DNA of 64,000 nucleotides from Flavobacterium circumlabens. GTDB lineage: Bacteria; Bacteroidota; Bacteroidia; Flavobacteriales; Flavobacteriaceae. Location of the stretch: NCBI RefSeq assembly GCF_004345565.1, contig NZ_SLWA01000006.1:1-64000 (forward strand), in the 5' to 3' direction. Below, in pieces: positions 34,675-38,592 of the stretch (the stretch's first letter is position 1; every line of letters begins with the position of its first letter). Under the pieces are notes generated by a model that was not told the DNA's origin, made no database searches, and saw only the letters and a list, made by a program, of their open reading frames with translations. The position numbers were made by a program, and so were the translations under genes.

Positions 34675-36117
34675 TTAAAGTTTTAGAATTAGATTTTCGT
34701 CGGCGCTATTTTCTTTGTTTGAAATATTTTTAGGAGCTTCCACCCAGCCCGTTTTATTGATAACAAATTTAAAAGTATGGAGATGATCTTTTTTAAAGTT
34801 ACTTACAGGAATCGATAACTCAAAAGTATTTTTATTTTTCCGAATCATTTGATAGTTCTTGTCCTCAGTATTCCAGTTGTTAAAAGAACCGGCAATGGAA
34901 ACGCTTTTTACCAGATCTGAATTAAAAAGTGTATTGTATTCGTAGGTAAATTGTATAGAATTATCTTTTATTTTATATCCGTAAATTCCTTTCTGTGATT
35001 CTTCCCTTGGCAATAGCGCTAAGGCTAATTTTGCAGCTGCATGTCCGATTGCATTGCTTGTATTCTGATCACTTACATTTACAATAACAGAGATTCCCAA
35101 TTTACTTTCGGGATATACCAAAAACATATTTTGTGTACCAAAAGCACCACCATGTTTCCAGCTGTTTTCCCCAAAACCGCTTACTTCAATTCCATCCCAA
35201 AAATAGCCGTTCCACATGGTTTCACTCTCCAGAAGATTTCGTTGTGATTCTACAGCAAATTTATTTTTAGTATCCAGTTCGAAGGCCAGAAACTTTACTA
35301 AATCTCCCAAAGTCGACTTGATACCACCGGCTGCTCCCCATAAATTATCTGATAAAATTGGCATTTGAATATTTTTTGCATTATATCCGTTTGCAATTAT
35401 TGTATTGGGATTTATAAGAAGCTGCGTATCGTTTAATGATAATTTATCGAAAATATTTTCCTCAAGTAAGGTTTCGTAGTTTTTATGATACACGTTTTCC
35501 AAAATGTGTGCTGTAAGCTGAACGCTGCCGTTACTGTATTTATATTTTTTACCCGGTAAAGTATCCAGTTTCATGGCATGTAAGTCCTGAAAAAAAGCCG
35601 CTCTGCTATACGAGTCGTCCAGTCTTTTAAAGGCAAGATAGCTAGTATCACTTATATTTTTTCTGATTTCCGAATTATCAGGCAAATCATGGCTAAATCC
35701 GCTTCTGAAAGATAGCAAATCCCGGAATTTGACAGGATTTCCCTCATATTCTAAATTGGGATAATCACCGGTAATATATTTTCGAATGTCATCATCCAAA
35801 TTTATTTTTTTTTCTAAAACGGCTTGTGCTACGAGTAATCCCGTGAATAATTTTGTAATGGAGGCCACTTCGAAAATAGTACTATTGGTTGCGGTATTAC
35901 CTTTTCCTTTGTCTATTTCACCATAATGTTTTGTATAGGTTTTTCCTTCTTTCACAACTCCAATAGAAACTGAATTTGCTTTGGCTTCTTTCAATACATC
36001 AGCTGCACTTTTATCCATTAGAATTAAAATCTCTTTTTCGCTCAGGGCTTCTGATTTTTGTTGTGCCTTAACTGAAAAACAAAGTAGTAAAAACAAAATG
36101 CATATTATTTTTTTCAT
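34675..36117 (-). CDS. Serine hydrolase (beta-lactamase class C fold) with C-terminal CBM48-like domain
   Basis: A 480-residue exported protein (signal peptide residues 1-18, SVKAQ). The beta-lactamase/transpeptidase-like domain covers about 25-385: SxxK nucleophile motif VASITKLF, YxN-type YSNG, and third motif HGGAFGT. The last 85 residues form a separate beta domain, VKSVSIAGSFNNWNTEDKNY onward to HTFKFVINKTGWVEAP, which resembles the AMPK/CBM48 glycogen-binding fold. Members act as esterases, D-aminopeptidases or peptidases; true beta-lactamase activity is unlikely. It lies downstream of the M56/BlaI operon in the same direction but is separated by a terminator, and its own upstream region lacks the BlaI-type dyads. 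Confidence 0.85.
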   Translation of the reverse strand: MKKIICILFLLLCFSVKAQQKSEALSEKEILILMDKSAADVLKEAKANSVSIGVVKEGKTYTKHYGEIDKGKGNTATNSTIFEVASITKLFTGLLVAQAVLEKKINLDDDIRKYITGDYPNLEYEGNPVKFRDLLSFRSGFSHDLPDNSEIRKNISDTSYLAFKRLDDSYSRAAFFQDLHAMKLDTLPGKKYKYSNGSVQLTAHILENVYHKNYETLLEENIFDKLSLNDTQLLINPNTIIANGYNAKNIQMPILSDNLWGAAGGIKSTLGDLVKFLAFELDTKNKFAVESQRNLLESETMWNGYFWDGIEVSGFGENSWKHGGAFGTQNMFLVYPESKLGISVIVNVSDQNTSNAIGHAAAKLALALLPREESQKGIYGYKIKDNSIQFTYEYNTLFNSDLVKSVSIAGSFNNWNTEDKNYQMIRKNKNTFELSIPVSNFKKDHLHTFKFVINKTGWVEAPKNISNKENSADENLILKL

Positions 36118-36156: not shown

Positions 36157-36190
36157 TAAAAAAAACCAGTGTTGGGCACTGGTTTTTTTT
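36157..36190 (-). terminator. Terminator after the M56 gene
   Basis: AAAACCAGTG and CACTGGTTTT form a hairpin with A- and T-tracts on either side, 40 nt past the M56 stop on the minus strand. Confidence 0.8.
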
Positions 36191-36228
36191 ATGATTCTAG
36201 TAAGTTATACGTTTTAAATTTTTACGTA

Positions 36229-38070: not shown

Positions 38071-38439
38071 TTATTTTTCTTCTTTTGGATTTTCAATCAT
38101 AGCCAGAATTTCGCGTAATTCTGCTGCAGATATTTTTTCTTCTTTGGCAAAAAACGAAACCATACTTTTATAGGAACTATTAAAATAATTATCAATAGCG
38201 GTACTCATAAAACCTTTTCGGTAATCCTCAATCGTTACAATAGGATAATATTGATGTGTATTTCCAAAGGCGTTATGGCTCACATATCCTTTTTCTTCCA
38301 GATTCCTTACAATAGTTGAAAGTGTATTATAATGAGGCTGATCTTCGGTTATTTCTGCCTGAACTTCTTTTACGAATGCTTTTTTAAGCTTCCATAAAAT
38401 GTGCATGATTTCTTCTTCCTTGTTCGTTAGCTTTTGCAT
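38071..38439 (-). CDS. BlaI/MecI-family transcriptional repressor
   Basis: A winged-helix repressor of about 122 residues. The N-terminal LTNKEEEIMHILWKLKKAFV and the recognition part HYNTLSTIVRNLEEKGYV are typical of BlaI/MecI/CopY proteins, followed by a helical dimerisation domain. The start is placed at the ATG of MQKLTNKEEE (38439); a TTG at 38487 would add 16 residues, but it is the -33 element of the promoter. It is co-transcribed with the M56 peptidase 6 nt downstream, which presumably cleaves or de-represses it. Two 16-bp dyads in the promoter indicate autoregulation. Confidence 0.9.
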   Translation of the reverse strand: MQKLTNKEEEIMHILWKLKKAFVKEVQAEITEDQPHYNTLSTIVRNLEEKGYVSHNAFGNTHQYYPIVTIEDYRKGFMSTAIDNYFNSSYKSMVSFFAKEEKISAAELREILAMIENPKEEK

Positions 38440-38456
38440 GTTTTCTAATTTTAATT

Positions 38457-38487
38457 CAAACCTACAACTATTTTTATAGTTACACAA
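38457..38487 (-). promoter_or_regulatory. Promoter of the BlaI/M56 operon
   Basis: On the minus strand, TTG (complement of 38485-38487) and TAGGTTTG (complement of 38457-38464) are separated by exactly 20 nt, a full match to TTG-N17-23-TAnnTTTG. Transcription would start near 38450, about 11 nt before the BlaI ATG. The dyads at 38466-38481 and 38486-38501 cover the spacer and the -33 box. Confidence 0.7.
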
Positions 38488-38501
38488 CTATAAAAATAGT
38501 T
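38466..38501. promoter_or_regulatory. Double BlaI-type operator
   Basis: Two perfect dyads: AACTAT-TTTT-ATAGTT at 38466-38481 and AACTAT-AAAA-ATAGTT at 38486-38501, joined by ACAC. Their centres are 20 bp apart, about two helical turns, so two dimers could bind on the same face. The whole 36-bp block is also a larger inverted repeat. A dimer here would block the promoter. Confidence 0.75.
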
Positions 38502-38592
38502 ATTTAACTAAATTTTCAGTTTAAAACATGAAAAAGTACTTCGATTTAAGTGTAATAAATTGAAAATTAATGATTTATGATTAGAATAAAAT

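Follow-up and report, generated by a model that had tools for sequence, protein, structure and literature searches.

A regularly phased array of three 16-bp inverted repeats covers the promoter of the blaI–M56 operon in Flavobacterium circumlabens, and we consider it very likely to be a tandem operator of the downstream-encoded BlaI, through which the repressor would hold its own operon in check. The window, that is, the whole stretch of 64,000 nucleotides that was analysed, contains the array upstream of blaI on the minus strand. Read on that strand, the order is O3 AACTGAAAATTTAGTT, AAAT, O2 AACTATTTTTATAGTT, GTGT, O1 AACTATAAAAATAGTT, G, the −7 element TAGGTTTG, 17 bases and the blaI ATG at 38439 (Table 1). 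O1 and O2 stand 20 bp apart from start to start with a gap of 4 bp, and the promoter TTG consists of the final two bases of O2 plus one more. A sequence-only reading of this DNA had described two perfect dyads 20 bp apart and a promoter TTG-N20-TAGGTTTG, all of which are exact, but the dyads number three, O3 having been missed, and to call the promoter 'enclosed by' them is loose wording for dyads that lie within it, across its upstream element and just beyond.

Table 1. Features of the array and its operon (positions of the window), and arrays before other genes in other genomes (loci)
Feature	Position or locus	Strand	Remarks
O1, proximal dyad AACTATTTTTATAGTT	38466–38481	read on +	minus-strand reading AACTATAAAAATAGTT; occupies the −33/−7 spacer
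O2, middle dyad AACTATAAAAATAGTT	38486–38501	read on +	minus-strand reading AACTATTTTTATAGTT; shares bases with the −33 TTG
O3, distal dyad AACTAAATTTTCAGTT	38506–38521	read on +	minus-strand reading AACTGAAAATTTAGTT; just upstream, same 20-bp register
Bacteroidetes-type promoter TTG-N20-TAGGTTTG	38457–38487	−	exact; −7 element 38457–38464, TTG 38485–38487
blaI, Penicillinase_R (PF03965) repressor, 122 aa	38071–38439	−	profile match
M56 metallopeptidase, BlaR1-like protease domain, 611 aa	36229–38064	−	HEKVH at residue 165
Intrinsic-terminator-like hairpin 3′ of M56	36157–36191	−	−17.1 kcal/mol, z −7.15, U-run
Beta-lactamase-family serine hydrolase (PF00144)	34675–36117	−	beyond the terminator-like hairpin
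Array before beta-lactamase-family hydrolases	L107, L114, L134		TAnnTTTG after O1
Array before small secreted- or lipoprotein-like genes, then blaI	L101, L102, L111		no Pfam match in L102 and L111
Array before CarboxypepD or outer-membrane-type proteins	L119, L208, L202		L202 below the Pfam cut-off
Array before a ChaN-like protein	L123		TAnnTTTG after O1
Array before a MacB-like permease	L248		TAnnTTTG after O1

Bacteroidetes-type promoters have the form TTG, about 20 bp and TAnnTTTG. Taken alone, TTG-N20-TAnnTTTG occurs in the window at chance level (4 matches against 2.5 expected). The palindrome AACTAT-N4-ATAGTT is expected 0.007 times per Markov-shuffled window, and a 20-bp pair of AACT-N8-AGTT, the pattern by which we define the array (dyad consensus AACTA-N6-TAGTT), arose in none of 300 shuffled windows. 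Transcription of the operon would be expected to start near 38449–38453. The start codon of BlaI proposed earlier, at 38439, is supported by residues 1–12, which are invariant across 13 aligned Flavobacterium BlaI sequences; a longer, mechanically called reading frame from a TTG at 38487 would begin within the operator.

The first gene encodes a clear member of the BlaI family: the protein scores 106 bits against PF03965 (cut-off 22.6) over residues 4–116 of 122, is similar in sequence to MecI (1sd6, E 1.7e-8) and is 99% identical to a Flavobacterium BlaI found by protein search. An AlphaFold model built on a shallow 13-row alignment had a mean pLDDT of 57.7 and is left out of the argument. 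The M56 protein matches PF05569 at 52.3 bits (cut-off 31) and carries the HEXXH motif; against blaR1_generic it reaches 34.2 bits, for a cut-off of 400, with residues 153–291 alone matched, and no Pfam family for a penicillin-binding or beta-lactam sensor domain is found on it at E 0.001. The hairpin downstream of M56 probably ends the operon, so that the operon is most likely blaI–M56 and the hydrolase probably a separate unit. Of 76 Flavobacterium loci, 30 have such a hydrolase no more than 600 bp beyond the last M56, 45 do not and 1 is undecided.

First, the array is conserved throughout the genus. We collected by protein search 76 distinct Flavobacterium loci, the best of at least 580 relatives and close kin of one another, and every one carries an exact 20-bp pair of AACT-N8-AGTT before the first blaI, at a single place. 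In the 77 rows formed by these loci and the window, O3 fits the same pattern exactly in 55 and with one mismatch in 22, TAnnTTTG follows O1 in all 77, and the outer bases of the half-sites do not vary in O1 and O2, O3 being the most variable dyad. The spacer behind TTG measures 20 bases in 62 of the 76 loci and 19 in 12, with no TTG at 18–22 in the remaining 2. Upstream of O3, conservation falls mostly below 1 bit per position; the leader and the start of blaI are also well conserved, so that within the genus the array is not alone in being conserved.

In 48 of the 76 loci the genes stand in tandem, blaI–M56–blaI–M56, and the array precedes the first blaI alone. In one such tandem (L013, 2864–7255) a stretch that looks plug-like by eye lies close to the end of the first M56 protein (YGDIAKNGVVEIITK), and the second has a Met/Lys-rich tail; the plug-like stretch of the first-copy M56 gave no Pfam plug match. 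The genome of the window has one blaI–M56 pair, of the type with the Met/Lys-rich tail. In six loci (L023, L046, L053, L055, L057 and L080) an insert of roughly 80–95 bases (GCGTTAAGGAT...AACGCCC) separates the blaI promoter from the ATG. The copy in L046 folds moderately well (z −2.4), a Rfam search of the six loci and the window returned five tRNA matches, none of them in the window or at the insert, and 7 of 41 Flavobacterium genomes hold one match apiece, five of these partial.

Second, the array follows BlaI across the family. The exact pair is present in 185 of 397 Flavobacteriaceae genomes and in 129 of 237 genera, and the reversed pattern in 1 of the 397. Counting as close a BlaI whose best E-value lies under 1e-34, a cut set after viewing two groups of E-values, we find the pair in 182 of the 215 genomes that have one and in 3 of the 182 that do not (Fisher p 1.6e-73, relatedness ignored). 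Among the 33 genomes that bear BlaI and lack the exact pair, we fetched 14, and all 14 have mismatched dyads in the same register, with half-sites that are mostly AACG/CGTT.

To these 14 upstream regions we added those of 29 of the 30 best-scoring loci, the window included (one was omitted where the match began at residue 2), and scored dyads singly, with a cut that we set at 8.5 of 10, in the resulting 43 regions, all chosen by protein alone. Two or more dyads exceed the cut in 41 of the 43, the exceptions being second copies in tandem operons. The distance between dyads is 20 bp in 77 instances, 40 bp in 36 and another value in 3; Markov controls gave one 20-bp pair in 8600. Since evenly spaced dyads precede blaI in so many relatives, the array is very probably a binding site of BlaI.

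Third, half-site and recognition helix appear to shift together. For repressors with an 'SS' recognition helix, base 5 is A at 3 and G or T at 21 of the 24 half-sites; with any other helix it is A at 621 of 706. The 'SS' set comprises five loci that are not independent, so this covariation is only suggestive of regulator and operator changing together. An 'NS' residue alone is not decisive: the half-site is AACTT in 6 of 6 for the 'NSISTIVR' repressor of L198, and A is kept in 9 of 10 for the 'NS' repressors of L052 and L125. L198 belongs to a genome (G195) in which this diverged BlaI, behind a three-dyad 20-bp array of AACTTA/TAAGTT, coexists with an ordinary array.

Three genomes carry the exact pair and no close BlaI (G071, G082 and G142): blaI is not among the four nearest listed open reading frames in G071 and G142, and it is absent from both fetched stretches of G082. 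These genomes would fit a different regulator that binds the dyads and controls blaI–M56 while BlaI acts elsewhere, as would the arrays that precede genes other than blaI, described below. We regard such a regulator as improbable, however, because the pair tracks close BlaI over the 397 genomes, because the array stays with blaI in the fetched loci while the neighbours vary (MFS, Na/Ca exchanger, ABC transporter) and because the half-site shifts with the recognition helix of BlaI. In L210 (G071) and L211 (G142) the array lies beside a gene that by eye resembles the Na/Ca exchangers of other loci, and these arrays are perhaps remnants of a lost blaI–M56 operon.

The dyads also lie 72–127 bp past the stop codon of an upstream MFS gene, on the same strand, and their AT-rich hairpins could form in RNA, as expected of terminators or hairpins of that gene's transcript. 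Yet they lack a U-run of the kind that trails the M56 hairpin, such an origin would account neither for the constant 20-bp phasing nor for the way the dyads fit the promoter, and in other genera many of the fetched loci keep the array beside a divergent upstream gene, which together make this origin very improbable. Single dyads are no commoner in the genome than in the reversed control, as chance AT-rich palindromes would be, but the failure of shuffled windows to yield a pair, the presence of the pair in all 76 loci and the lone match of the reversed control among 397 genomes leave chance a negligible probability, refuted by conservation.

We return to the reading of the array as a BlaI operator, for which the distribution beyond the family can be given. 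In a sample of the phylum, 43 of 395 genomes have the pair and 2 the reversed control. By hand tally these are 23 of 24 genomes of the genus, 3 of 17 other members of the family, 0 of 8 from another family of the order, 17 of 49 from other families of the class and 0 of 297 from other classes. Base composition is unmatched between these groups, and the zeros do not amount to absence. From 15 of the 17 genomes of other families we obtained 20 arrays, of which 18 lie directly before blaI; of the other two, one is separated from blaI by a small gene and one precedes a MacB/FtsX permease. Autoregulation by BlaI, as the sequence-only reading had suggested, is strongly supported as the probable mode of control by this comparison of loci and genomes.

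The array would probably repress the operon as follows. Up to three BlaI dimers would occupy the three 16-bp dyads, whose spacing of exactly 20 bp is close to two helical turns (about 34 degrees short at 10.5 bp per turn), so that the dimers would line up along almost the same side of the helix. With O1 in the spacer between the −33 and −7 elements and O2 over the −33 element, occupancy would exclude RNA polymerase and repress blaI–M56, BlaI itself included, and O3 would probably raise occupancy through contacts between neighbours. A signal from the envelope would then be expected to lead the M56 protease to inactivate BlaI and free the array.

The sequence-only reading had also noticed no second copy in the window and proposed that the regulon may be only the operon itself. 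This fits the genome of the window: scans found no other paired array at 0 or 1 mismatch, and with 2 mismatches allowed the reversed control gave more places (7) than the genome did outside the array (6). Single dyads fall below the control, AACTAT-N4-ATAGTT with up to one mismatch giving 33 matches against 67 (no enrichment) and AACKA-N6-TMGTT 27 against 96, and a regulon of single dyads in this genome was accordingly rejected. The 27 include O1 and O2, and of 14 others that were viewed 12 lie inside open reading frames. A regulon of one operon thus appears to stand for this genome, single weak sites being possible. The genome also encodes a BlaI paralog (C1:456892–457230, L006) with the recognition stretch TTTVATLLK, followed by an M56-like start, both judged by eye; on reading the stretch upstream of it we found no AACT-N8-AGTT array.

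As a general rule the proposal fails, because in other genomes arrays precede other genes. We fetched 23 loci whose first gene is not blaI, from genomes partly selected for several matches, and in 11 of them TAnnTTTG follows O1 within 3 bp on the gene side alone, before genes of the classes listed in Table 1. The remaining 12 (L105, L117, L120, L122, L200, L204, L205, L209, L210, L211, L216 and L256) lack a TAnnTTTG in that position. The exact pairs of L105 and L216 lie inside open reading frames and were set aside as probable chance matches; L120 (G154), a near-complete palindrome without TAnnTTTG between genes that by eye are HU-like and RNase G-like, was likewise rejected as a target. In L278, blaI and M56 come some way behind a hydrolase array; in G201 a separate, degenerate array of three dyads belongs to blaI, and the hydrolase array stands at another place.

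Operators of related repressors offer points of comparison. The BlaI/MecI systems of Bacillus licheniformis and Staphylococcus aureus share with this operon a PF03965 repressor beside an M56 protease of BlaR1 type, and differ in that we find here neither a divergent beta-lactamase gene nor a penicillin-binding domain on the M56 protein. According to excerpts of PMC3305447, B. licheniformis BlaI represses itself through several operators, OP1, OP2 and OP3, and the core of the OP1 oligonucleotide is TTACATATGTAA, compared with AACTA-N6-TAGTT here. The M56 protein shows weak similarity to BlaR1 in the structures 8exp (E 0.002) and 8exs (E 0.0028), and its C-terminal half is of low complexity, differing from BlaR1; in a tandem first copy that half is plug-like by eye. 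In the S. aureus model, as set out in part of PMC9834060, BlaR1 cuts BlaI at Asn101–Phe102. In an alignment with MecI, Phe96–Phe97 stand at the cleavage position of our BlaI, so that the P1 residue differs and the P1′ Phe is kept; across 13 sequences F97 does not vary and F96 scarcely does. Cleavage by the M56 protein would here be an extrapolation, as the aligned residues are Phe–Phe and the model comes from S. aureus.

The CopR–CopY operator RNYKACANNTGTMRNY has the same length of 16 bp (excerpts of PMC7253601). Its outer bases, R-N-Y-K and M-R-N-Y, fit 228 of 228 Flavobacterium dyads, which is weak support given the degeneracy of RNYK, into which AACT would fall by chance with a probability of about one in eight, and given that the pattern AACT-N8-AGTT had served to select O1 and O2. 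At the inner C and G of the CopY 16-mer, agreement drops to 12% and 3% of the 228 dyads, and the CA-NN-TG core of the known family operator (TACA-NN-TGTA) is missing here. The same excerpts of PMC7253601 describe one or two operators for CopY, against two or three sites here, with the distal one suggested to block the −35 element and the proximal one RNA polymerase, a two-layered logic like that envisaged above for the array; pairs lie mostly 24–39 bases apart with a mode of 26, by a measuring convention that may differ from our 20 bp start to start. They also report that two operators gave no significantly higher affinity for pneumococcus CopY, and so cooperativity is not to be assumed here. 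BlaI scores 38.7 bits against CopY_TcrY (cut-off 121.95) and, as a 122-residue protein without cysteine, has no CXC motif, unlike CopY. The array is best described as a putative operator, BlaI/CopY-like in function, without the TACA/TGTA core.

Among the open-licence papers listed by our literature searches, no title or abstract opening names an operator for a Flavobacteriaceae BlaI. An excerpt of PMC5294843 reports that a BlaI-family gene, which may or may not correspond to the present BlaI, is up-regulated in a Riemerella lipopolysaccharide mutant, a faint hint of a link to the envelope. Tentatively, and with somewhat less than even confidence, BlaI–M56 of the Bacteroidia might form a class-wide envelope-sensing system that does not primarily respond to beta-lactams and is defined by two or three phased operators, AACTA-N6-TAGTT, on which BlaI dimers sit side by side; different lineages would have recruited beta-lactamase-family hydrolases, CarboxypepD/TonB outer-membrane, ChaN-like and MacB-like genes to it, and paralogous BlaI proteins would have changed the half-site and kept the 20-bp array.

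A close BlaI is widespread, with 215 of the 397 family genomes carrying one. The pattern is specific, with one reversed match in those genomes and two probable chance pairs among the arrays viewed, so that regulons of such arrays should be readable from sequence. The array supplies a ready gel-shift probe, its positions indicate envelope genes as candidate targets, and the inducing signal thereby becomes testable.
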